A DNA stretch of 64,000 nt, taken from a virus. The DNA is taken from positions 32,281 through 96,280 of the IMG/VR virus record IMGVR_UViG_3300050026_000055; one strand, 5' to 3'. Below are positions 7,260 through 54,027 of the stretch, piece after piece. The position numbers and the translations under genes are program-made. How positions within the stretch are numbered: position 1 is the stretch's first letter; the number at the start of each line of letters is the position of its first letter. Below the pieces are notes generated by a model. It saw only the letters and a list, made by a program, of their open reading frames with translations, did not search any database and was not told the origin of the DNA.

Positions 7260-9470
7260 CGCGCTATTACCGCCAAGCGGCAAGGCAGTACCTTGGTAGA
7301 CATCACGTATACCAGCTCTGTCAGACTTCGGCGGTTTGTTGCCTTTGCCGACTCCCTGAGTCACGGCAGTACTTTGAGCTGCATTTGCCAAACCTGTAGT
7401 CACCGGACTACTGGCAATTTTGCTACCAGCCCCAAATGTTTTCCAAAGAGCAGGATGAGTGCTCAAAAATTCCAAAACACTCTGGCCTGCCTTCATACCG
7501 CCAGCAGCACAAGAAAGCCCAACAATAACGGCGGCAGTTTCTACAGTATTATGACCAGTCAATTCAGTTGCTACACCGGCTCCACCAGCTACGCCAGCAA
7601 TTACACCAGCTTTTACTAATCGCTGCACCATCTGTGCGTTCTTAGCGTTAGAGATTACCTGTTGAGCAAACTTTCCGATTTCAGGCGGCATGTTTACCGG
7701 GCTTGGTCCTGTGCCAAACAATAGATTGAAGTTATCTTCCGTCAGCGTCTTTTGTGCTTTCGTAACCTGTTTTAACAAATCGCCCGGATCAAAACGACCG
7801 GTTTCCTTGTTTACAGCATCATCCATCCATGTCTTGAAAACATCTCTGCCGATTGGAAGCATTTTTTCACGGCTACCGATTAGATCACGTAGCGCGCTTA
7901 CCTTGCCATTAGAATCTCCTGACAACAGTTCTTTGCCTAAATCGTTGACAGCTTTACCCGGCTCTGTCTCAGCTAATCGTGAGATAGCCTTTGACTCCAT
8001 AAGAGCATTAGTGGTTCTATAATTACCACGCAACTTGGTATACTGATCTGCAACGGATTTAAGTTGAGGATCAGTCTTACCAGCTTTGTCAGCCATTTGT
8101 TGAATCGTGTCGTCCACGGATGTCATCATTTGCCGCCAAGTACGAGAATTGATGTCACCAAAGCCCATTCGACTCGTCGCGGCGTAATCATCTGCTCCTT
8201 TTCTAAGAGCCTGACGAAATGAAATAAGATCATTAATGGACCACGGTTTTACTTCCACTGGTTCAGCTTTTCCAGCAGGAGAAAAACCTTCCTCATAATT
8301 AAAAGTTCCCTCAGCCGCATCAGCCGCCTTAGCTGCCGGAAGTTCTCCCTTTTCTAAATTAGAAAGAAGATTCTTGGTTTTAGCATCAAATCCTTCCGGT
8401 GCTCTAGCTTGTGCAACAAATGGGTGTGTCTGTGCCGCTTCGTCTTCAGTGCCGGCCAGTATTTTACCTGCACGGCTAGCGATGGGATTGTCTTTAATAT
8501 CTATTGTTTGACCTTGCAATTTTTCTTTAATGTCATTAATACCGTGTTCAAAGTCGGTATGCATCTGCAATCGTTTGGCTTCAATCTCACTTCTGACTGC
8601 ACCGACAACTTCAGTCTTTTCCGGCGCTGTCTTTGCAACTTTAGCTAACTCATCAAGAGTCTTACCGGCTTTTGCACCAGCAGCCAAACCGCCTTTAATA
8701 GCCGCACCAGCCGCACCAACCGTGCCAGAAAGAGCAGCCATTGCACCGCCCTCTTTCAAAGCCTGACCGGTGTCACCAGTTTTAACTTTAGTCTGACCTG
8801 CCTGTACTGCGCCTTGACGAACGGCGTTGCCGACCACATTAGCAGCTTCAGGATGCTTTGCTACCATCTCTGTTCCATACTTCAACGCATTTACAATGCG
8901 TGGAGATAGTTCAAGAGTCTGAGCAATTTTAGCAGCCTTCATTAACTTAGCTCCGGTAGCTAACCCAGCCAAAGCAGGATCACCAAGAATAAATTCTGTC
9001 AAACTTTCGCCAGCATATCCTATACTTTCTGCAGTACCTTTAGGCGTAAGATCGGTTTGAAGTTGGCCTTGTGCATCTCGCATCTCAGAGCCGGTGGGTG
9101 AATCTTCAGGATTGATGCCGGAATATTCGGACGGCAACATTTGTTTGGTATTAGTAGGCACCGCATTTACAGCAGACCTAGCAATTCCTGAAATAGTTGA
9201 TCCAATGCCCTTCATGTATCCAGTAGCCGCGCCAAGCAAACCACCGGCTACTCTGGTAGCCCCCGCTTGGTTAGTGGCTGCATCTGAACCACTTAAAGGA
9301 CCGGCAGGAATAGCCTTCATTCCGTTTTGTGGAATCTCGACATTGCCGCTAGTATAGCCAGAACTAGACGCACCATTGCCCGCCTGAGATTGATCTTCAG
9401 GAGCAGGTGTAGAAGTTGGAGTCTGCCCCGGAAAGCTAACATTACCTGATGTATAGTCATTGCCTGCCAT
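7245..9470 (-). CDS. Large internal virion protein, Ala/Gly-rich
   Basis: 741 residues. The N-terminus holds two copies of a YTSGNV(S/E) element and a Pro/Gln-rich linker. Several Ala/Gly-rich, moderately hydrophobic stretches follow (GGLLGAATGYMKGIGSTISG; MAALSGTVGAAGAAIKGGL; VIAGVAGGAGVATELTG) among long charged helices. Such alternation is seen in podovirus ejection proteins that cross the cell envelope with the DNA. It lies directly downstream of the transglycosylase-bearing virion protein, supporting that role. Ends at a putative +1 frameshift site. Not identified by sequence family. Confidence 0.65.
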   Translation of the reverse strand: MAGNDYTSGNVSFPGQTPTSTPAPEDQSQAGNGASSSGYTSGNVEIPQNGMKAIPAGPLSGSDAATNQAGATRVAGGLLGAATGYMKGIGSTISGIARSAVNAVPTNTKQMLPSEYSGINPEDSPTGSEMRDAQGQLQTDLTPKGTAESIGYAGESLTEFILGDPALAGLATGAKLMKAAKIAQTLELSPRIVNALKYGTEMVAKHPEAANVVGNAVRQGAVQAGQTKVKTGDTGQALKEGGAMAALSGTVGAAGAAIKGGLAAGAKAGKTLDELAKVAKTAPEKTEVVGAVRSEIEAKRLQMHTDFEHGINDIKEKLQGQTIDIKDNPIASRAGKILAGTEDEAAQTHPFVAQARAPEGFDAKTKNLLSNLEKGELPAAKAADAAEGTFNYEEGFSPAGKAEPVEVKPWSINDLISFRQALRKGADDYAATSRMGFGDINSRTWRQMMTSVDDTIQQMADKAGKTDPQLKSVADQYTKLRGNYRTTNALMESKAISRLAETEPGKAVNDLGKELLSGDSNGKVSALRDLIGSREKMLPIGRDVFKTWMDDAVNKETGRFDPGDLLKQVTKAQKTLTEDNFNLLFGTGPSPVNMPPEIGKFAQQVISNAKNAQMVQRLVKAGVIAGVAGGAGVATELTGHNTVETAAVIVGLSCAAGGMKAGQSVLEFLSTHPALWKTFGAGSKIASSPVTTGLANAAQSTAVTQGVGKGNKPPKSDRAGIRDVYQGTALPLGGNSAKEAP

Positions 9471-9479
9471 TATTTGTCC

Positions 9480-12398
9480 TTATTTTGTCGCTCCCACACC
9501 AAGATCGTTGGGGTGTGCCCATTGTCCGGTCTGAGGATTCTTAACTGCAATTAATGCTCCATTTTTATACAAAGCGTTGCCTTGTATTGTCTTAGGATCA
9601 GGAAGATCGTTGGGTAATTCCACAGAAGGTGCCTGTGTCTTTCCCGTTAGTTCATTGACAGTCTTTCCACCCTTACCTGCGCCAGAAGCACTACCTGTAA
9701 TGCTGCCGCCACTCTTCATGTTTCCTAACAATTCGTTTACATAAGGATTGTTAATTTTCTGAATGGCCTTTACGGTATCTGGATAAATTAGATTATGGAA
9801 ATCTTCATTGAATGATTGCTTCCATTCTTCATTCAACGGAACAATACGAACAGCAGCCGTATGTGCCATTTCTTGAATTGAAGAATAAACGTTTTGCCAT
9901 GGTGATGTATCCTGAGATACCTGTGCTGCCATCTTTCTAGCGTCATCTGTCAAAGCGTGCTGATTGTTCAACAAGTTCTGCCAATCGGTAGAAGCCGTCT
10001 GCATGGCAACTTTAAATGCATTCCAGTCTGTATTGGTTCCAAATTTATCGTTCAACCATGCCATAGTCTTGTTGCTGTATTCAGAACTATTAAGATCAAT
10101 GCCGCTGCTTGCTTTAAGTTTATCCAAAGCGGTCAATGCGCCAGCCATGTGACCAAGAGACGTGTTGGCATTTTTAATGGCTGCTCCCTGACTAGTGGTG
10201 TTCGATCTGCCACTACCGGCAAAGTTTTCAAACAAACGAACCTTAGATTCAACTTCTTCTGGATTAAAGTCAGGATTACGCTTGTGGGCTTCTTGCTCCA
10301 AAGCTTGTCTACTGGCTTCATTACGAAGACTGGTGACATGCTTCAAATCAACCATTGACGGTCCACCCGGCACTTTATTTCCGTTTTTGTCAACACCGGA
10401 CAGTTGTGTAATTAGGTCGTCATTGTTTCGGATTGTATCCTCTCTAGACTGTTCCTTCAGACGCTCTGTTTTACCAACTGCCGCGTCAGCCTTTGTCTGC
10501 TCCGTGTTATGCAGTTCAGCCAAACGCAGTTTTTCTCTGTAATCGTTGATGAAGGATTGTCCTTGTAATTTGCCGTCTGGACTTTGCAGCAGACTCTTCA
10601 ATCGGTTTCCTGATTGCGGGTCGAAAGTGACTTTACCGCTCTTTGCCTGTTGGTCCAACATTTTGTCAATAGAAGATGGTTCGTTGCCTTTGCCGTCCAA
10701 AAATCCATTCATTCCACCGGGCAAACGATTGTACACGCCTACATCAGCTTTGGTTATACGTCCGGAACCTGCTGCGTCCATTACATCAACAGGTTTCATA
10801 GTAGGTTGAGGTAGTTCGCCTGATTCCTTTTGATCCTGTTGCTGCTGTTCAGTAGGCATTCCAGCCTTGTTGTGTACATCGTTGACGTACTTCTTAGTTT
10901 CAGGATAATTAGGCACTCCTCCGGCCTTGTTTACCGCAGGTTCACCAGCATTGTAGGCAGCTATAGCCTTTGTAGTATCTCCTTTGTATGCCTTCAACAA
11001 ATCGGACAGTAAATGCGTACCAGCATCTATGTTCTGTGCAGGATCAAATGCATCAGTAACTCCATACTTCTTGGCGGTTGCTGGCATTAATTGCATCAAT
11101 CCTTGAGCACCCTTTGGACTTAACGCATTAGGATTTCCCTTTGATTCAGTGTGCAATACAGCATTTACTAGACTGACAGGAACATCATACTTTGTAGCTG
11201 CTGTCTGAGTAGCGTCAGTAATATTTGTCGGAAGCGTAAAGTTTGTTTTCTTTATCTCAGTCGCAGGTTTTGCTGCTCCTGCCCCAACTACCTCAGTCTT
11301 TGTGGCAGATTTTCCTGTTGCATAACCATCCAAGTCTTTTTGCATATTCTTATAACCAGCTACTTCATTGATACCAGCTATAATTCGATAAGCACGTTCC
11401 TGATAGTCTTTGGGCAAGTTTAACATCTTTCCGTCTTTATCGACGTAACCTTGCACTTTATACTTAGCCAACAAATCTTTTACATCTTGCGGGAAGTCAA
11501 CCACTTTGCTTGGATCAATAATGGCGTATTTAAATTCGTATTGTTCTACACCATTTTGCATTAATGGCATTCCATCATCACCAATTTTTGGCACAATTCC
11601 AATGGGGATAGCACCATCTTTTGTTACATGATATTGCGCTAATTTGCTTGGCAGTTCACTAGCAGTGGCATAATCCTGAACACCATTAATACTCTGCAAA
11701 GCTGTGTGCAAAGATGTATACATGTCTACCATCGACTGTTGGTGTTCCATGCCCAATTTGTTTGCCTTCAACTGGTTGGTATATAAATCAAGGTTATTTT
11801 TAGTGATAGATGCCTGACGAGCAAAATCATCTTTCGCTCGTTGCTGTTGGCTTTGATCTATTTCTTTTGCATGAGCCATGCCGGCCTGACCGCCAGCAGC
11901 CAACCCGCGAGCGCCTGCTCCCGGACCACGCTGACCAGCACCAGCAAATAAACCTGTCAATGCGCCAGCAACAATGGAGTTGGCAAGTTGTGATTTAGTC
12001 TGTTGAACCTGAGTCCTTTCCATCTTGCCTGTATCAGCGTTCAAATTGTAGGTATATTTTGGGCCAGCTAACGCGCCCATTATGCTCCTAAAAATATCGT
12101 GCGGCTGATGTGACTGACTCGGACCGGCACCGGTGCCACTCTTATCAATGCCATTGTCATTCGATTGCATCGTTTTTTGAACGTCATTGTCAGCCGACTG
12201 CATAGTTTTTTGGACATCATTCGGCTGTGCTGCCGATTGTGCTGGCGGTTGAGCCGCTGGCTGTCCCATAGATTGTGCTGGCGGCTGAGTCGTGCCAGAT
12301 GCAGACGAAGAACTGTCTACAGGCGTACTAGACACAGGCATACTAGCCTGCGGCTGTATCTGATCGTTCGGTTGTTCGTTAGGAGCGTCGAGTGCCAT
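9480..12398 (-). CDS. Internal virion protein with lytic transglycosylase (SLT) domain
   Basis: 972 residues. The first ~100 are Pro/Gln/Ser low complexity with a repeated VQKTMQS element. Residues ~390-500 form an SLT domain: AVLHTESKGNPNALS with the catalytic glutamate, GAQGLMQLMPATAKKYG, then AIAAYNAGEPAV. The remainder is long helical sequence. The domain cleaves the glycan backbone of peptidoglycan; in podoviruses such proteins are ejected and open the wall for DNA entry. Neighbours on both sides are also internal virion proteins. Confidence 0.88.
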   Translation of the reverse strand: MALDAPNEQPNDQIQPQASMPVSSTPVDSSSSASGTTQPPAQSMGQPAAQPPAQSAAQPNDVQKTMQSADNDVQKTMQSNDNGIDKSGTGAGPSQSHQPHDIFRSIMGALAGPKYTYNLNADTGKMERTQVQQTKSQLANSIVAGALTGLFAGAGQRGPGAGARGLAAGGQAGMAHAKEIDQSQQQRAKDDFARQASITKNNLDLYTNQLKANKLGMEHQQSMVDMYTSLHTALQSINGVQDYATASELPSKLAQYHVTKDGAIPIGIVPKIGDDGMPLMQNGVEQYEFKYAIIDPSKVVDFPQDVKDLLAKYKVQGYVDKDGKMLNLPKDYQERAYRIIAGINEVAGYKNMQKDLDGYATGKSATKTEVVGAGAAKPATEIKKTNFTLPTNITDATQTAATKYDVPVSLVNAVLHTESKGNPNALSPKGAQGLMQLMPATAKKYGVTDAFDPAQNIDAGTHLLSDLLKAYKGDTTKAIAAYNAGEPAVNKAGGVPNYPETKKYVNDVHNKAGMPTEQQQQDQKESGELPQPTMKPVDVMDAAGSGRITKADVGVYNRLPGGMNGFLDGKGNEPSSIDKMLDQQAKSGKVTFDPQSGNRLKSLLQSPDGKLQGQSFINDYREKLRLAELHNTEQTKADAAVGKTERLKEQSREDTIRNNDDLITQLSGVDKNGNKVPGGPSMVDLKHVTSLRNEASRQALEQEAHKRNPDFNPEEVESKVRLFENFAGSGRSNTTSQGAAIKNANTSLGHMAGALTALDKLKASSGIDLNSSEYSNKTMAWLNDKFGTNTDWNAFKVAMQTASTDWQNLLNNQHALTDDARKMAAQVSQDTSPWQNVYSSIQEMAHTAAVRIVPLNEEWKQSFNEDFHNLIYPDTVKAIQKINNPYVNELLGNMKSGGSITGSASGAGKGGKTVNELTGKTQAPSVELPNDLPDPKTIQGNALYKNGALIAVKNPQTGQWAHPNDLGVGATK

Positions 12399-29489: not shown

Positions 29490-29774
29490 TTAAACAATAT
29501 ACAAAACATCTATTACATCGTTTTGTGTACCTATAATATACCACTCATTCAAATTAGTAACATTATTAATATTAAAGGCTCCTGCGTTAATGGACCCTCC
29601 TCCACCACCGCTTTGTGTTACTAATTCAATGCCTTTAGTCGTTGAAACAGTAGAATCTCCAACTCTACAACTATGTGCGGCATTATTTTGAATCATTAAT
29701 TGCCGTATTCCGACTTTTGTAGCTGAAATCTGTGTAGCTCCTGCTCCTAATGTTATTTGTAAAAGATTAAGCAT
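29490..29774 (-). CDS. Small structural protein
   Basis: 94 residues: LLQITLGAGATQISATKVG, IQNNAAHSCRVGDSTVS, a glycine linker (SGGGGGS), then NLNEWYIIGTQNDVIDVLYIV. The all-beta pattern with a VGDSTVS turn is common in small phage virion proteins. Lies between the fibre module and the duplicated decoration-like genes, just after an intrinsic terminator. Confidence 0.6.
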   Translation of the reverse strand: MLNLLQITLGAGATQISATKVGIRQLMIQNNAAHSCRVGDSTVSTTKGIELVTQSGGGGGSINAGAFNINNVTNLNEWYIIGTQNDVIDVLYIV

Positions 29775-29789
29775 AATTTTTTCCTCAAG

Positions 29790-29817
29790 ATAAAAGGGGA
29801 GAATTAAGTCTCCCCTT
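29790..29817 (-). terminator. Intrinsic terminator after the decoration-like genes
   Basis: 9-bp perfect stem AAGGGGAGA/TCTCCCCTT with a 6-nt loop, followed on the - strand by TTATCTTG after the stem's own TT (CCCCTTTTATC). It lies directly after the gene 29828-30451. Confidence 0.8.
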
Positions 29818-29827
29818 ACTACACAAA

Positions 29828-30451
29828 TTACTCCATAGACATTGTGAATTCAGTGATTGCACATGTCTCAGACGTATCAGATACACTATTCAAAACCGAT
29901 GCACAGAACGAAATGGCCGGGGTATTATTACCAAGCGGGGGCGTTATATAGCCCGAACTCGGGGTCGAATTGGCGAACAAAGCTGTGTTCAAATTCGGAC
30001 AAGTCAAAGCAGCAGTAACGGTACTAATCGAAACCGCAGCTCCACAAATCATAACCGAAGGCAAAACAGCAACTATTGTTCCAGCATTTACATCACCAAA
30101 GAATTCCTGCTCAACACAGAAATCATAGTATGTGCCTGCTGTCAATGTTCCAGATGCAGCCGTGGTAAAGGTATCAGCTGGAGAGCCAGTCAATGCCAGC
30201 CCAGACCATGCCTGCCACAAAAGACCAAGTTTCACAGTCTGAGAAGTACCGTGAGCCTTAATCCATCCACCAAGGTTAACCTTAAATCGCTTGCCCTGCA
30301 TCTGATTCGCAGAAGGGCCATTCAGATAAAGATTACCGGCAGTTTGACCAGCAAGTACACCAGCAGCATCAACCTGTATAATCTGCTCCGCTAATCCAGC
30401 AGCGGTAGTGAAAGCACTGTAAATTTCATATGCTCTTGCAACGATAGCCAT
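29828..30451 (-). CDS. Virion (decoration-like) protein, tandem paralogue 1
   Basis: 207 residues, beta-rich: SAFTTAAGLAEQIIQVD, NQMQGKRFKVNLGGWIKAHG, ADTFTTAASGTLTAGTYYDF, ending TCAITEFTMSME. The adjacent gene 30490-31125 encodes the same architecture with many identical positions and the same end (TCALTEFTLSME), and both start codons are preceded by the identical AAGGAGATTTTT. Position between fibre and capsid genes and the all-beta pattern suggest head decoration or another abundant virion protein. Confidence 0.65.
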   Translation of the reverse strand: MAIVARAYEIYSAFTTAAGLAEQIIQVDAAGVLAGQTAGNLYLNGPSANQMQGKRFKVNLGGWIKAHGTSQTVKLGLLWQAWSGLALTGSPADTFTTAASGTLTAGTYYDFCVEQEFFGDVNAGTIVAVLPSVMICGAAVSISTVTAALTCPNLNTALFANSTPSSGYITPPLGNNTPAISFCASVLNSVSDTSETCAITEFTMSME

Positions 30452-32040: not shown

Positions 32041-35000
32041 CATTCTGTTATCGTGATATTATTTAATTCCTTGGCGAGTTGTTCGACTTCTCGTACTCGT
32101 CGTAGAACTGTGTCGTCATCAACTTGTTTTCCACAAGCACGCGACATGTTAATTTTCATCCAAGAGAATAAAGTAAACTTTGATTTACTCACTTGGCATG
32201 ACATATAAGCGCTATTTTGATTTGAAGAGCAGCATGGAACAAGATTTCCCGGTTTGTGACCAAAATTTGAATCAACTCTGTCCAGCCCCCAAACCTTGCT
32301 ATCTGGCGGATAAGCCCCGCAGTAAGCACATGGCCGTGGTTTTCCAGTTTCATCCAAATAATAATGAATCGCTTGCGTTGGATTATCAAACCCAAATTCT
32401 CGATTCTCTACTTTATCTGTCCATTTCATCCCTAAGTATCGTTTTCTTAAAGATGGATAATATCCTCTTGACATTATCTTTGCTTTTTGTGAAAACTCCA
32501 TGCCAGCTTTTACATAAGCCGTTAAGAGTCCTTCTTTTCTCCAAATGCCCGCCCAACTTTCGATAGTTACAGGTAAAATACCGGTTCTATTGGTAATTTC
32601 CTTGTACGCTCTCTTAGATTGCAGCAGTTCAAGCACTTGTTGCTTCTGTTCTTTCGAATATGTCATAATTAACTAATTATACCACAGGTTAAGCATTTCT
32701 GTCAACCTCTTTTGATTGTTTTTCTCAAAAGTTCGGACTATCACATCACCACGTTAGTGGTGCTCTCTTGTTTAGTCTCTCACGGTGCCTTGCGGCTTCC
32801 GCCTTGTTGTCATTTCAGATTTCAAGTCAATTAAAGAGAGTTCTCACATTTGCTTTTCAGCAAAGTGACCCATACTTTTTAGGATGTCCATCCCGGAATC
32901 AAACCTTCCGGATCAGCTACCGATGGCTCGGCATTTTGCACGACATTGCATTTTATATTCTGCCACTCGCCCGAATCATAGCCCGTATCGCCCTGTGCGC
33001 CAAGATTAATGGCGAACACGCCGTCACGACCAAAGATATAGGTACGAAGCGCAGTCAGACCAGTAATCGCACCAGAGCCGGGATTGTAGTTGGCAGTCGT
33101 AGTAACAAGGTTTGTCTGGAAGAAATGAACGCCGGAAGCCGGAAGTTCGATAACTTCAGTCAAATCTGTACTAATCAACTCGTCCATCTTTGCAAAACCC
33201 ACCGGGGTGTGCTTCAAAATGTCGATAGGAGCATCGTTGCTATTATCGGCCAATATGTCACCAAGAGCAAACGGGTGAATACATTTGTGTTTAGGCTAAA
33301 TCAGAAACAATTTCTGAACCCTGATTCACATCAGGTGCGCTCTTACTGTCACCAGTAAGATCAGACTCTCTCATCACAGATTCATCATCTGCGTTTAGCG
33401 TATTAGTCGTTACGGATAATCCACGTTTATTTAGTGCTTGACACTCAAGCATCAGTTCCTTACGCCTATCTACATTTTTTAGTTCAGTACCACAAGACTG
33501 ACCTAAACGAATGTACTCAAGAATAAGTTTTGCTTGTTTTCTTTTTATCACTAAATACGGCAGAATTCCGAGAATCAATTCCTCAGTATTCTTTTTACCT
33601 TTAGGACGCCAACTATAAGCAATTTTATGTATTTCTTTTGCTCTACGGTGATGATAATAAACACCGCCAAAGTTTTTTATCAACCACTCCATCAGTTCGA
33701 TGTTAGTGTTTGTTATTTCAACCCTTTGGTTGGTGAAATTATATTGCCTTTCTTCACCAAGTTTAGTTGTGTAATAATTACCGTGATTTTGATAAATTGA
33801 AAATGTTCCTTCACCATCAAACAATCCGGCCAGATACGACCAGTACACCTTGTCAGGTGTTTTCATTTGGACTCTTTCCTCGGTATTGTCTCAGAAGCGT
33901 TCTGAGAGTTTCACCGATATAGCTAAATTATAGGGCGCTATTATAAACTAACGCCAGCAAACGACTTGCTTGCTTCATCGAACGGACGAACCGAACGACC
34001 AGCAAGAGACTGCACTTGGTTACGAATCTGAGACAGACTCAGAGTTGTAAAAGCAGTGGTACTTGCAGCAGCCAACTTTACAGCTACCGAACTATCAACA
34101 GTAGCCGCGCCATCAACAACCGCACGCACCAGAGCCGACAAAGACTCACCAAGACGATAAGACATCTCGCGAGCCACATTCTCAACCGTATTATCAATGG
34201 CAGTTGCCAAACTAAGCGAACTGAAATTTGCATAATCCTGTGTTGTTTAGGCTACCTGTATCACTACAGGAGCACTCTTATAGTTTTACCTATAAGATCG
34301 GACTCTATCATCACGTAAAATTACGTGTCTAACGTATTAGTCTCTAGGGATTTCCCACTATTAAGAGCCATACAAGCTACATGAAGTTCGGCTCGTCGTA
34401 AAGGATTTTCTTGTCCTCTCATACGAACCCATTCAAGTGCTATCAACGCCTGCTCTCGTTTTATGATATGATAAGGAAGAGTGCCAAGAAGAATAATTTC
34501 CATTCTCTCGTAACCACCATTTACAAACCATTCAAAACAGGTCTGTACACCTAGTTTACCCTTCTGCTTCGGCCTAAATTCTCCACCAAAATATCGTACC
34601 AACCAGCGCATCAACTTCATTGATGTGTTTGCTACCGATACTTTTAGATCGTATCCGAAGTATTCGTTGCCCTTTTTAGTTTGAAGTGTTGTTCTTGATA
34701 TTCCAATACAACCTTCGGCATCAATTGCCATAGCTAAACGAGCCCATTTAGTCTTATCATTAGTCATAATCTTAGGTCTTTCCTCGGTATTGTCTAATCA
34801 GACTGAGCTGAATAGGTTTTCACCGATATAGTTAGATTTTGATTACCGAGAACGCCAATTAAGCAAAAGCGTACTCGCCGATCACAGCAGTCGTAGTCAG
34901 GACGGAAACCTGAATCGGATTGCCGACTGTACCTTCCGAAACCTGAGAGGTATTGCCTGCCAGCGGAACGTACATAAACATCTGATACTGATTGCCGGAC

Positions 35001-47665: not shown

Positions 47666-50125
47666 ATGTCTGAAACAGCAGAACTAAAACCGATGGTATT
47701 GATGCCGCCTCTAAACCCAACACTGGTTACAGATGGCGCTGGTCTTGAAAAAATTAAATCATTTCTAAATCGATCTGTAGATAAGATTATCGGATGGGAC
47801 AAAGAAACAACTCCGACGAAGGATTTTTATTGGCGGAAGGATCGGACTTGGCAGATTGGTGACAAAACCGAGCAATACGTTGTCGATCTGCTGGCGTTCG
47901 TTGATGGAGATTCTGACCTGCTGTATTCCTGTCAAGGTGAATACGGCAAAAAGATGAGTCCTAAGTTACAGCCGGTAATTGATGTGTTTGATCCGGCATT
48001 GTGTACCAAAGAATTTTTGAAGGTCGGCGTAAATCTTGGATTTGAATATGAGCAGTCGCGTTGGAACTTCGGGCAGAGAACATGGAATTTCTATTCCGTG
48101 GATATGGTTGAGCGTGTAATTTGCGCTGGACTGCATTCGCTGAAGGATTATGACTACTATTCTTTGGCCGAAATGATGGCTCGTTATTTCAAGATGTATG
48201 TTGATAAAGAGTTGCAGACATCGTTTAATTTAAGTAACCCTCTGACGCAGGCACAAGTTGAGTATGCCGCGCTAGATACTAGGCTACCACTGGCGTTGCG
48301 TCGATCACAGCTCAAGACTATTAAAGCAGATGGACTTGAAGAGACGTGCAAAATTGAGAATGATGCTATCGGTGCATTTGTCGATATGCACATTCATGGA
48401 CAGCGCATTAATAAAGAAAAGTGGATCATACGCGACAACAAGTACCGCGCTGAAGTAGCGATAGCGATTGCCGAATTAGACAGTCATTTTCTACCAATCG
48501 TAGGTTCTAAGAACGTACAGATTACAGACGCAGAAATAGCTGAAGCCGACCTGAAGTGGAAATCATACAACAAGATTTCTGATGATGAGTTGAGTCTGAA
48601 AAATGAAATAAAGAAATCAAAAACTGCGACTGGCATAGAATTACTAATTGAAAAAAAGAATGGCCTTGAAGTTGCTCGTAAAATTGAGAAAGAATATTAC
48701 AAGCAGATAAAGTCCGAACTTGGTAAAAAACGAACCAAAGTTAACAAACTAATTGACAAGTGCGAAGGAGAAGCATTAATCAATTACGGCTCTGGTGCTC
48801 AACTGTTGGCTGTGTTTGCCGGTATGAAGGGACTCAAGAGTTTAAAAGACACTGAGGACGATACTCTTGAAAAATTCAAGAATGTTCCGGTAATTGCTTC
48901 TTTACAGAAGTTTAGGAAAGCAAGCAAGCAGGTAAGCACATATGGTATACAGTGGACACAACAGTGGGCCACTAAACCGTGTAATGAAGAAGGTTGGCTG
49001 CATCCGGGGGATGGCAGACTTCATTCTAAATTTAATCAGTTAGAGGCAGAGACAGGACGAAGTAGTAGTTCACAACCTAATGGTCAAAATCTGCCAAAGG
49101 ACAAAGATACTCGTTCTTGTTTTATCGCTGATTCACCGGATGAAGAAGAGCCGGAAGGTTATTGCTTAGTTACTGGTGATATGGCTGGTGCCGAACTTAG
49201 AATTCTAGCTGAATTGTCAGAAGAGAAGGTTTGGCTAGAAGCATTTCTAAAAGGGCAGGATGTTCATGAAGTTTGCGCCGAAATGATGTATCCGGCCGAG
49301 TGGCCGGGATGGGCAGTAGACGGTTGTGCTTTTTATAAAATCAATCCTGAAACTAATGAGCCGTTTAAGTTTAAATGCGATTGTCCTATTCATAAGGAGA
49401 AAAGAGACGAAGCTAAAGTACCAAACTTCTTGATTCCGTATGGTGGCGGTCCACCGAATCTTGCTGCACAGACCGGAAAAACTATTGAAGAGGCTAAAGC
49501 TATTTTAGCGCACCATAAAGAAAGCTTTCCTACACTTTGGAAGTATCTTGATGAAAGCGGCAAAATGGCCAAATTGAACAAAGAGTCTCGTTCAATGTAT
49601 GGTCGCAGGCGGCTGTTTCCTGATCCGACTTGGGAATTGGCAATTGAAAAAGCAAAAGATGATCGTGAAAAACAACTCAAGTTACCTAAAGAAGAGGCTG
49701 ATAAAAATGTTGCGACATTCTTAGCGTTACATAATCGTAAGCCGACAAGCGCCGAAAAATGGTTTCTTGTTCATAGAATGCCAAATCAAAAAGAAATCGC
49801 AAATGCGTATGCTGCGATGTTTAGCACAATTGAAAGAAGGGGCAAGAATCACGCAATTCAGGCTAGCAATGCTGACATAATTAAGCTGGCTATGGGCTGC
49901 GGTCACGATAAAAACGGCAAGCCTTATTTGTGGCATATTTTTCCAAAGTTAGGAGCTAAGTTGATAGCAATGATACATGACGAACTGCTTATTCAGGTGC
50001 CAAAAAGAAATGCCGCACTTGTAGTGGAGGCTATAGGCGATGCTTTTAAACGAGCGGCGGCAGAAAAATTTACTAAAATTGCCATGGAATTCGACAGCCA
50101 TGTGTCAGATTGCTGGACTAAATAA
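47666..50125 (+). CDS. DNA polymerase, family A, with 3'-5' exonuclease
   Basis: 819 residues. Exonuclease motifs: GWDKETTP (DxE) near residue 44 and YAALDTRLP (YxxxD) near 202. A coiled insertion follows. Polymerase motifs: A in VTGDMAGAELRILAELS, B in KVPNFLIPYGGGPPNLA and C in MIHDELLIQVP. The set is complete and the C-terminus is ordinary, so no intein or intron is evident. It is the replicative enzyme. Downstream is an HNH gene starting on the last base of its stop. Confidence 0.95.
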   Translation: MSETAELKPMVLMPPLNPTLVTDGAGLEKIKSFLNRSVDKIIGWDKETTPTKDFYWRKDRTWQIGDKTEQYVVDLLAFVDGDSDLLYSCQGEYGKKMSPKLQPVIDVFDPALCTKEFLKVGVNLGFEYEQSRWNFGQRTWNFYSVDMVERVICAGLHSLKDYDYYSLAEMMARYFKMYVDKELQTSFNLSNPLTQAQVEYAALDTRLPLALRRSQLKTIKADGLEETCKIENDAIGAFVDMHIHGQRINKEKWIIRDNKYRAEVAIAIAELDSHFLPIVGSKNVQITDAEIAEADLKWKSYNKISDDELSLKNEIKKSKTATGIELLIEKKNGLEVARKIEKEYYKQIKSELGKKRTKVNKLIDKCEGEALINYGSGAQLLAVFAGMKGLKSLKDTEDDTLEKFKNVPVIASLQKFRKASKQVSTYGIQWTQQWATKPCNEEGWLHPGDGRLHSKFNQLEAETGRSSSSQPNGQNLPKDKDTRSCFIADSPDEEEPEGYCLVTGDMAGAELRILAELSEEKVWLEAFLKGQDVHEVCAEMMYPAEWPGWAVDGCAFYKINPETNEPFKFKCDCPIHKEKRDEAKVPNFLIPYGGGPPNLAAQTGKTIEEAKAILAHHKESFPTLWKYLDESGKMAKLNKESRSMYGRRRLFPDPTWELAIEKAKDDREKQLKLPKEEADKNVATFLALHNRKPTSAEKWFLVHRMPNQKEIANAYAAMFSTIERRGKNHAIQASNADIIKLAMGCGHDKNGKPYLWHIFPKLGAKLIAMIHDELLIQVPKRNAALVVEAIGDAFKRAAAEKFTKIAMEFDSHVSDCWTK

Positions 50126-51576: not shown

Positions 51577-52071
51577 ATGCATTGTAAAGATAGTGACATT
51601 TATATGAAACAGGTTCACCTTGGTAATGGCATGTCGGCATTAGTTGATAATACCGACTACGATAACATACGCACATATTCGTGGCACGCCGTTAAGTATC
51701 CAAAGCGTAATACGTGGTATGCGGTCACTGCTATTGGGGGCAAGACTGTTCAAATGCATCGGCTTATTTTAGGTTTATGTGCCGATGATCCACAAGTTGA
51801 CCATGCCAATTGTTACGGCCTAGACAATCAGAGACACAACATTAGGATAGCAACTGGGTCGCAAAATGCGATGAATCGACCTCCCAAACAGGGTCGCAGG
51901 TTCAAAGGCATCTACAAAACAACTACTGGTAAATGGGCCGCAAAAATTCAAACTCCGGGTAACGAACAGCATTATCTCGGTGTATGTACTTTACCAGAAG
52001 ACGCAGCGCGGCTTTATGATGCTGCGGCAATGATATATTTTGGAGAGTTTGCATATCTGAACTTTCCTTAA
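51577..52071 (+). CDS. HNH-AP2 homing endonuclease
   Basis: 164 residues (155 if the second ATG at 51604 is used). N-terminal part VHLGNGMSALVDNTDYDNI and YSWHAVKY..NTWYAVTAIGGKTVQMHRLILG lead to a reduced HNH core DDPQVDHANCYGLDNQRHNIRIAT. The AP2-like DNA-binding domain follows: KQGRRFKGIYKTTTGKWAAKIQ ... AARLYDAAAMIYFGEFAYLNFP. This fusion is a classic phage homing enzyme. It lies between a structured RNA and the tmRNA. Confidence 0.9.
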   Translation: MHCKDSDIYMKQVHLGNGMSALVDNTDYDNIRTYSWHAVKYPKRNTWYAVTAIGGKTVQMHRLILGLCADDPQVDHANCYGLDNQRHNIRIATGSQNAMNRPPKQGRRFKGIYKTTTGKWAAKIQTPGNEQHYLGVCTLPEDAARLYDAAAMIYFGEFAYLNFP

Positions 52072-52075
52072 CGAG

Positions 52076-52352
52076 AACGCATGTCAACCATTTAATGCAG
52101 TATAATCGGACCCGGTTAGCATATACCGGCAGGTCCACCATACTAATACATACTTCATAAATGTTGTTGTTTTAATTTGGGCCTGACAAGATTCGACGGT
52201 TGTATCTTGGTTAAGTGTTCGTGCAACGGAAGTATGTCCCGTTTAATAAATACATATAAACTAAAAAACGCCAATGAGGAAACTCTGGCTATGGAAGCCG
52301 CCGCGTAAGTTGCGGTTTTCGGGGTCTGGCCCACCTAGCAACAGAACGGGCC
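52076..52352 (+). ncRNA. ssrA: Circularly permuted (two-piece) tmRNA
   Basis: Acceptor piece first: P2 strand, T-arm-like CCGGT/ACCGG (loop non-canonical), CAGGTCC and A-CCA ending at 52140. A spacer of about 38 nt follows, then the coding piece starts GGGCCTG (52179-52185). The two halves pair in all 7 positions with G3-U70, the alanine identity pair, and A73. D-loop ATTCGACGG is conserved. P2 pairs GGTTGTAT with GTATAATC and TGGTT with AACCA. The tag frame GCC AAT GAG ... TAA gives ANEETLAMEAAA, its stop in the loop of CCGC/GCGG. It would rescue stalled ribosomes and tag proteins. Confidence 0.88.
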
Positions 52353-52365
52353 AATTATTTTTTAT
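52328..52365 (+). terminator. Terminal hairpin and terminator of the tmRNA
   Basis: GGCCC/GGGCC stem (52328-52332 with 52348-52352) with the loop ACCTAGCAACAGAAC, followed by AATTATTTTTTA. It probably forms the 3' end of the coding piece. Confidence 0.75.
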
Positions 52366-52374
52366 AGAGGATAA

Positions 52375-54027
52375 ATGACAGAAGACTCGATGCAGATGGG
52401 AGAATTTTCTCGAACGATTTTTAATGAACGGTATGCTCAGGAAGTAGAAGGAAGAAAAGAAACTCTTCAAGAAGTTGGTCAACGATGCGCTAACGAGGTA
52501 GGTAAGTCAGTAGGCATGAAGAAAGCTTTGCGCGGGGAGATAGCTCGCTTGATTACACTCCGCAAGTTTCTTCCCGGTGGCAGGTATCTCGCACAAACCG
52601 GAAAGCCATACCATCAAGTAAATAACTGCCTGATGCTTAGAGCAGAAGATAGTCGTGAAGGTTGGGCTGAAATAATGCACAATGCTTCTCTCGCTTTGAT
52701 GACAGGCGCAGGCATTGGTGTTAATTATAGTCATGTTAGACCAGAAGGAAAACCTATCCGCAAAACAGGCGGTACAGCAACCGGACCGCTAGCATTGATG
52801 CAGATGGTCAACGAATCGGCACGATGGATTAGACAAGGTGGAACACGTAGAGCAGCGTTGTGGGCCGGATTGAACTGGAAGCACGCTGACATTCATAAAT
52901 TCATTACATTAAAGAACTGGGTTCCAGAAGTACGAGCATTAAAAGCTAAGAACGTAGACTTTCCGGCAGCAATGGATATTACCAATATATCTATCGGGCT
53001 GGATGACGAATTTTTTAAAGCGTACAACGACGAGAAGCATGCATTAAACTCTCTTGCCACTTCCGTCTACCGTACTGCTGTCGAACGTATGTTAAAAACA
53101 GGGGAACCGGGGTTTTCAATTGACACAGGAATTAACAATGGCGAAGATTTGCGAAATGCTTGCACCGAGTTGTGTAGTCGTGATGACAGTGACATTTGCA
53201 ATCTCGGTAGCATTAATATGTCTAGAATCGATACCTTGGAAGAAATGCGGGAAGTTACTGAAATTGCTACAGCGTTTCTTTTAGCTGGCACTGTGTATAG
53301 CGATGTGCCTTATGCCAAGGTCGATCAAATAAGGACTAAGAACCGTCGTCTTGGTTTAGGGTTAATGGGAATCCATGAATGGCTTTTGAAGCGTGGCAAG
53401 AAATATGGGCAGGACGACGAACTGGCAAAGTATCTGGAAGTCTACCGTGACGAGAGTAATAGAGCGAGTGCTCAGTACGCCGAACAATGGGAATTGAGCA
53501 AGCCATTGAAGTGTAGGGCAATTGCCCCAACGGGCACTATAAGTATTTTAGCCGAAACTTCTGGGGGAATTGAACCCATATTTGTTTCAGCGTATAAGCG
53601 TTTGTACTATAAAGGAAATCAACGGTATTACCAATATGTAGTTGACCCTACAGCTAAGAAACTTATAGAAAGTGGCATAGAACCAGACAACATTGAAGAT
53701 GCTTATGTGTTGGCTGAAACTCCCGAAAGGAGAGTTAAGTTTCAAGCATGGGTTCAAAAATATGTAGACCACTCTGTATCATCAACAGTTAATTTGCCCC
53801 ATTGGGGATCAGAAATTAATAATGAAACTAAAACGATAGAATTTGGCGACATGTTGATAAAAACTTTACCAAGTATACGTGGTATTACTGTCTATCCAGA
53901 TGGAGCGCGATCAGCGCAACCAATGCAGCCTGTAAGTTACAAAACCGCCATAAAACATGTTGGCGAAGTGTTTATAGAAACAAGCAATATTTGCGATATA
54001 ACAGGTGGCGGGACATGTGGTTCGTGA
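52375..54027 (+). CDS. nrdJ: Class II (B12-dependent) ribonucleotide reductase
   Basis: 550 residues. FLPGGRYLAQTGKPYHQVNN leads to the first redox Cys (NNCLML). NACTELCS holds the thiyl-radical Cys with its Glu (NPCxE-like), DICNLGSINMSRID follows, and AIAPTGTISILAETSGGIEP matches the phosphate-binding region. The C-terminus CDITGGGTCGS offers the shuttle cysteines. Size and the lack of an R2 partner or ATP cone indicate the cobalamin-dependent class. It makes deoxynucleotides without oxygen or a radical subunit. An endonuclease gene follows 7 nt after the stop. Confidence 0.85.
   Translation: MTEDSMQMGEFSRTIFNERYAQEVEGRKETLQEVGQRCANEVGKSVGMKKALRGEIARLITLRKFLPGGRYLAQTGKPYHQVNNCLMLRAEDSREGWAEIMHNASLALMTGAGIGVNYSHVRPEGKPIRKTGGTATGPLALMQMVNESARWIRQGGTRRAALWAGLNWKHADIHKFITLKNWVPEVRALKAKNVDFPAAMDITNISIGLDDEFFKAYNDEKHALNSLATSVYRTAVERMLKTGEPGFSIDTGINNGEDLRNACTELCSRDDSDICNLGSINMSRIDTLEEMREVTEIATAFLLAGTVYSDVPYAKVDQIRTKNRRLGLGLMGIHEWLLKRGKKYGQDDELAKYLEVYRDESNRASAQYAEQWELSKPLKCRAIAPTGTISILAETSGGIEPIFVSAYKRLYYKGNQRYYQYVVDPTAKKLIESGIEPDNIEDAYVLAETPERRVKFQAWVQKYVDHSVSSTVNLPHWGSEINNETKTIEFGDMLIKTLPSIRGITVYPDGARSAQPMQPVSYKTAIKHVGEVFIETSNICDITGGGTCGS

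Follow-up and report, generated by a model that had tools for sequence, protein, structure and literature searches.

The window, by which we mean the whole 64,000-nt stretch analysed here (positions 32,281–96,280 of the 96,280-base IMG/VR virus record IMGVR_UViG_3300050026_000055, hereafter G000), contains a complete two-piece tmRNA gene of the circularly permuted type at 52079–52355 on the plus strand. The new elements are a soil phage lineage in which a two-piece tmRNA is strongly conserved and largely syntenic, a virus-borne class of this RNA with an 8-nt T-loop, and an unannotated copy in a cultured acidobacterial phage. Taken as a whole, the observations are very probably best explained by a working phage two-piece tmRNA for ribosome rescue. 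G000, a soil phage record, is a genuine phage record as judged by protein-profile matches to terminase, portal and DNA polymerase and by its kinship to the isolated phage Tunturi_3; it also has a ribonucleotide reductase (RNR) gene.

A preliminary description of this DNA had proposed a phage-encoded circularly permuted tmRNA, and cmscan bore the proposal out on the same strand. RF04321 (tmRNA_permuted) matched window positions 52079–52308 (+) in a scan of the whole window (62.0 bits; gathering threshold, 47; E 1.4e-9), and RF01849 (alpha_tmRNA) matched 52027–52355 (+) over its full length of 1–355, including the 3′ extension (59.9 bits; gathering threshold, 50; E 5.5e-14). The latter was the single alpha-type tmRNA match in the whole G000 record. 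Both scores lie above gathering, but their moderate size counts against the preferred explanation. A strict T-arm/acceptor/D-loop scan gave 0 matches in 0.56 Mb of shuffled sequence, indicating that the architecture of the window tmRNA did not arise by chance.

The acceptor piece comes first and begins, at the start of the RF04321 match, with the 5′ strand of P2 (GCATGTCAACCATTTAATGCAGTATAATC, 52079–52107), which pairs with the region after the D-loop. This is followed by a T-arm at 52112–52129 (CCGGT-TAGCATAT-ACCGG) with five of five stem pairs, compensatory changes at all five of them, and a non-canonical T-loop at 52117–52124, which has 8 nt in place of the expected 7. The 3′ acceptor strand CAGGTCC (52130–52136) and an encoded ACCA (52137–52140) form the predicted mature 3′ end of this piece. 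The intervening segment (52141–52178) is predicted to be removed, as suggested by its position in the permuted family models, and its length in relatives is 11–219 nt. The 5′ acceptor strand GGGCCTG (52179–52185) is where, according to the Rfam models, pairing and fold, RNase P is predicted to cut and the mRNA-like piece to begin; it forms seven of seven pairs with the 3′ strand, G3-U70 included, and the pairs and the boundaries at 52140 and 52179 agree with those described earlier. Then come the D-loop (ACAAGATTCGACGG, 52186–52199), with AG where the canonical loop has GG, and the 3′ strand of P2 (52200–52223), which was placed by the minimum free energy (MFE) fold, the duplex and the RF04321 structure line. 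The tag frame (52270–52308) was set by its reading frame and by alignment to the alpha_tmRNA consensus; it runs from the resume codon GCC at 52270 to the last codon GCG, which ends at 52305, and the stop TAA at 52306–52308, and encodes ANEETLAMEAAA, which ends as a small hydrophobic degron. The unguided MFE fold of 52079–52365 (z -2.2 versus shuffles) recovered P2 with 5+8+10 pairs, both the T-arm and the acceptor stem, and a hairpin holding the UAA in its loop; the separately computed P2 duplex came to -18.0 kcal/mol. The D-loop, P2, the tag frame and the stop in a hairpin loop, all claimed previously, are present.

The 3′ end (52326–52366) consists of a hairpin, GGCCC-(loop)-GGGCC before ATTATTTTTTAT, followed by a T-rich tail; the hairpin corresponds to the conserved 3′ hairpin in the alpha_tmRNA consensus; its conserved loop motif, CACCTAGCAACAGAAC, recurs in relatives such as G471 and G463. 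The terminator claimed earlier stands as far as the hairpin and tail are concerned, but a terminator scan allowing loops of 3–8 nt found none at this end, because the loop is about 15 nt long, and termination here is accordingly only presumed. Two observations on relatives concern the same parts. The 219-nt spacer of the permuted tmRNA L016 (G010:11458–11857) includes two T-arm-like stretches, GTGCAGGTTCGATCCCGGC and GTAGGTTCGAGTCCTAC, which are possibly decayed tRNA genes, and the acceptor of the G462 tmRNA (L260) seems to end in ACCC instead of ACCA, so that its CCA may need post-transcriptional completion.

ARAGORN reported tRNA-Thr alone and no tmRNA in the window, probably because of the unusual 8-nt T-loop UAGCAUAU, which is not of the GGCRGUR type of RF01849 tmRNA; likewise, it found none of the 8-nt-loop copies tested. 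The loop, UAGCAUA[U/A/G], occurs in three lineage members (the window phage, G070 and G469) and also, on different stems, in G042, G069, G071, L205, L207 and L289/L290. The G042 copy had first come up in a search that did not rely on the loop, so its loop identity is independent. A search for the TAGCANAT loop in Alphaproteobacteria was negative in all 385 sampled genomes, and the usual GGCNGTR loop was detected by the same kind of pattern in 45 of 58. We assessed the coupling between T-loop and D-loop over 98 distinct viral copies. TTC-type T-loops were accompanied by GG in the D-loop in 36 copies, plus 2 that were read one base off; NGC- or TAGC-type T-loops were accompanied by AG in 54, plus 4 that read as GG with the fixed offset falling one base late in AGG; and two unusual T-loops went with GG. 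The window tmRNA retains this coupling, which suggests that the 8-nt loop behaves as an alpha-type loop with one extra base. We infer that the tRNA contact 19/56 would be kept and the 18/55 contact changed; a literature search on the tertiary contacts between T-loop and D-loop in two-piece tmRNA yielded nothing direct. With its 8 nt, the T-loop could impair contacts with EF-Tu, SmpB or modification enzymes.

A tblastn search with the terminase identified Tunturiibacter phage Tunturi_3, an isolated podovirus of Acidobacteriota (PMC11924767), as the nearest match at 49% over the full length, the next listed being at about 22–24%. Of the proteins of the window phage, 40 had a match in Tunturi_3, 54 in IMG/VR record G070, 46 in G004 and 48 in G010, and in all five phages the tmRNA lies after the DNA polymerase gene and shares its strand. 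The permuted tmRNA of Tunturi_3 (63.3 bits, cmscan) is located at 88172–88396 on the minus strand of PP885686 (L233:39273–39497); it is not annotated in that record, and the word 'tmRNA' is absent from PMC11924767. We then searched IMG/VR using an alignment of five polymerases (A1) and took 32 polymerase relatives, two more weak partial matches being excluded. RF04321 matched 22 of the 32, every one on the polymerase strand, and 19 of these tmRNAs were 0.49–2.40 kb downstream of the polymerase; those off position were in G471, near the opposite end of its record, and in G466 and G478, 20–24 kb from the polymerase. Near-identical overlaps of 8–13 kb showed that L253/L281, L266/L280, L265/L279 and L275/L259 are the same species, indicating that several apparent absences are fragments of carrier species (L253=L281, L266=L280, L275=L259); others of the apparently tmRNA-free contigs end soon after the polymerase. 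Only G475 (3.4 kb) and the G465/G476 species (2.3 kb) lacked a match despite having more than 2 kb after the polymerase, and these may be true absences. The tmRNA is therefore near-constant in this phage lineage, to which a virus of Acidobacteriota belongs, and is largely syntenic beside the DNA polymerase gene. The presence of three T-loop classes at one syntenic locus points to replacement or switching over time.

In the window, this conserved upstream neighbour, a family A DNA polymerase, lies at 47666–50125 (+) (phrog_17, E 1e-72). An HNH endonuclease gene (51577–52071, +; phrog_99, E 7e-26) is directly upstream of the tmRNA and separate from it. tblastn found no homologue of it in the compared relatives, so the endonuclease is a local neighbour and was rejected as a mobile carrier of the tmRNA. 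Downstream is a class II-like RNR gene (52375–54027, +; PF02867, E 1e-53), and a tie with it was rejected as well, RNR being located elsewhere in the genomes of relatives. Integration into ssrA genes is common (PMC4383910, PMC9004378), and the gene might accordingly be a passive relic, that is, a host ssrA fragment from imprecise prophage excision or a carried integration site. This explanation is scarcely credible, as both halves are complete and covary in many phages, the place beside the polymerase is largely kept, and the T-loop type was not seen in the sampled Alphaproteobacteria. The tmRNA matched none of 50,697 phage records by BLAST, so it does not closely copy any phage tmRNA deposited there.

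Conservation as RNA was examined in an alignment (A2) of 23 distinct tRNA-like domains, 19 from the lineage and four from other viruses sharing the 8-nt T-loop. In the T-stem and acceptor stem, 276 of 276 pairs were standard, compared with 72.8% in shuffles, and double (compensatory) changes were observed at 8 of 12 pairs. The covariation score was 0.689, as against 0.142 for shuffled alignments and at most 0.075 with the partners slid. Since the halves had been located by a pairing-aware search favouring paired solutions, the complete pairing is partly by construction; this caveat does not touch the double changes or the independent Rfam matches. G3-U70, the identity pair for alanyl-tRNA synthetase (AlaRS), was invariant in all 23 copies. 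These features also bear on a possible decoy role, in which the phage RNA would titrate SmpB and thereby block trans-translation in the host; such a role has been proposed for the RNA of mycobacteriophage DS6A, which consists of a tRNA-like domain only (PMC4131195). The unusual T-loop and the phage context would suit such an inhibitor, but a decoy would need neither the AlaRS pair nor the tag parts, and the window tmRNA, unlike that of DS6A, retains a complete tag frame, resume region and stop hairpin; we consider this explanation very unlikely. Together, the covariance models, the fold, the covariation across related phages and the conserved gene position support the reading as a ribosome-rescue RNA put forward in the preliminary description, rescue itself being deduced from the anatomy.

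The tags of the lineage are diverse and mostly long, the start codons of the longest having been judged by eye. They include ANTNVLAMSAAAGA (G473), AKNNKRAAFKTFAPKAMAVAA (G466), AETLVSKRSAKVIPFVSRKVRALVPQTAMLLAA (G004), ANSTYDKMVAGLLAETSDVQSTELVMA (G479) and ATKSVGSRIASFVKGLFSFDGFAIPVLA (G471), with others read by frame. A majority end in LAA, VAA, MAA or LV[ML]A; ends other than Ala-Ala (LVMA, VLA and one VKV) occur in some members, suggesting that the host may not degrade tagged proteins in every case. The VKV case is the G463 tmRNA (L262), whose tag frame ends GEFVKV and may not be a proteolysis tag. The exact tag DNA of the window tmRNA was found nowhere else in IMG/VR. G042, which shares few genes with the window phage, nevertheless has both its loop and its tag style (ANEFAMAAAA), and the tag frames of L062 and L065 end AMAAAA, resembling the LAMxAAA style of the window tag.

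It had been suggested that the tag directs proteins to a different protease in concert with a Clp-type ATPase. G000 does encode a stand-alone ClpB/C-D2-like AAA+ ATPase (G000:C1:32027–33100; window -253 to 820), after a PP2C phosphatase and a radical SAM gene, and its MGF motif, positioned by eye, is presumably where ClpC has its ClpP loop. In such a tag-switching device, the phage tmRNA would compete with that of the host, and the phage tag, possibly read by the phage ATPase, would send proteins to another protease fate. Tags do differ among phages, and both lineage members found to have the ATPase, G000 and G473, have LAM[ES]AAA-type tags. However, of the 16 tmRNA carriers compared, only three (G000, G473 and G069) had the ATPase and 13 lacked it, and with this poor co-occurrence we rejected a link to the tmRNA and regard the suggestion as unsupported. 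G000 and G473 are close kin (polymerase identity of 52%, the highest in the IMG/VR relative search), so the pairing of ATPase and tag style may reflect shared ancestry, and the wide tag variation argues against one dedicated reader. Tag switching is thus an unlikely explanation, though the MGF motif and the shared LAMxAAA style are compatible with it. The best reading is that selection has kept the tRNA-like domain and its position, while the tag drifts. Diverse tags on a conserved domain suggest that selection acts mainly to keep ribosomes available under the control of the phage, and that the tag has to serve mainly as a working degron.

For a working two-piece tmRNA, we envisage the following course. 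The precursor would be cut by host tRNA enzymes, with RNase P acting at 52179, 3′ processing to the CCA at 52140 and removal of the spacer 52141–52178, and the two pieces would stay joined via the acceptor stem and P2. After charging by host AlaRS through G3-U70, the tmRNA, with host SmpB and EF-Tu, would, in the infected cell, enter ribosomes halted on mRNAs that are broken or lack a stop codon; Ala plus ANEETLAMEAAA would be appended, and the ribosome and a degradable protein released. The window tmRNA probably acts with the SmpB of its host. The G000 record has no SmpB gene, but the record may be incomplete, so that absence from the phage is not proven. Proteins with an RF-1 domain, possibly a second rescue factor, are encoded by some tmRNA carriers: Tunturi_3 (82616–82783, ArfB-like in size), G480 (8534–8710), G042 (29740–30054) and, weakly, G070. 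Such an ArfB-like partner was rejected for the window phage, which lacks it.

Tunturi_3, at about 50% protein identity, is the only basis for assigning a host to the window phage. The bacterial lineages with two-piece tmRNA that the preliminary description listed may hint at a host of that kind; the nearest isolated phage infects Acidobacteriota. The tmRNA of Acidobacteriota is probably one-piece. It is an evenly balanced proposition that an Acidobacteriota phage lineage keeps its own two-piece tmRNA, including a virus-restricted subclass with the 8-nt T-loop, as a core gene beside the polymerase, and that in the same cell the rescue RNAs of host and phage, different in structure, then share one SmpB.

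The tmRNAs of Bacillus phage G and the mycobacteriophage Bxz1 group have the standard one-piece form. These phages and DS6A, which has the tRNA-like domain alone, likewise carry a phage-borne ssrA (PMC4131195), and phage tmRNAs, two-piece ones included, have been published before (PMC4131195, PMC9004378, PMC11915505); Bradyrhizobium elkanii phages also carry a tmRNA (PMC12656738). Closest in form are the two-piece tmRNAs of the marine phages Melnitz (OM43) and Mosig (Pelagibacter) (PMC9004378), which are circularly permuted, broadly of the alphaproteobacterial type, and show that the host need not share the form. In contrast to these, the window tmRNA has no adjacent glutamine-riboswitch match in cmscan of the window, and it belongs to a soil lineage akin to an acidobacterial podovirus, with the 8-nt T-loop, a conserved place after the DNA polymerase gene and diverse, often long tags. 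It resembles alphaproteobacterial RF01849 tmRNA (e.g., that of Caulobacter) in its permuted order, P2, AG-type D-loop and 3′ hairpin with a GCAACAGAA loop. The metagenome-assembled genomes (MAGs) L020, L022 and L024 have exactly the same CAGGTCC/GGGCCTG acceptor stem; however, the T-loop of such bacteria is GGCRGUR (7 nt) as against UAGCAUAU (8 nt), and their RF01849 scores are 191–229 bits as against 60. The Tunturi_3 tmRNA shares the phage lineage, neighbourhood and permuted form of the window tmRNA, but differs in its canonical TTCGACC T-loop and a long tag ending FATMLAA.

Phage tmRNAs have so far been treated as occasional pick-ups, whereas the near-fixed position and strong RNA covariation in this soil phage lineage indicate that the tmRNA matters to the phage. 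Two-piece phage tmRNAs were reported as mostly marine (50 of 53, counted with ARAGORN; PMC9004378); such earlier counts are probably underestimates, as ARAGORN overlooks many copies, including every 8-nt-loop copy tested. With the isolated pair Tunturi_3 and Tunturiibacter psychrotolerans, one can directly test why a phage carries a tmRNA, and which parts of a tmRNA are dispensable can be read from the natural variation in tags and T-loops.

Several further observations were made along the way. Permuted matches at L049, L054 and L055 were regarded as false, the one at L049 being overlapped by a standard tmRNA (RF00023, 93 bits). In the same 138-kb viral contig, ROOL RNA (L049:9400–9988 and 10132–10558; 379 bits) adjoins the standard tmRNA and a tRNA array. 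A 996-aa primase-helicase ORF of G000 (G000:C1:21610–24600) has LAGLIDADG and Hom_end domains mid-protein, suggesting an intein. Finally, permuted tmRNAs were also present in the huge-phage IMG/VR contigs L032, L062 and L065 (332–463 kb).
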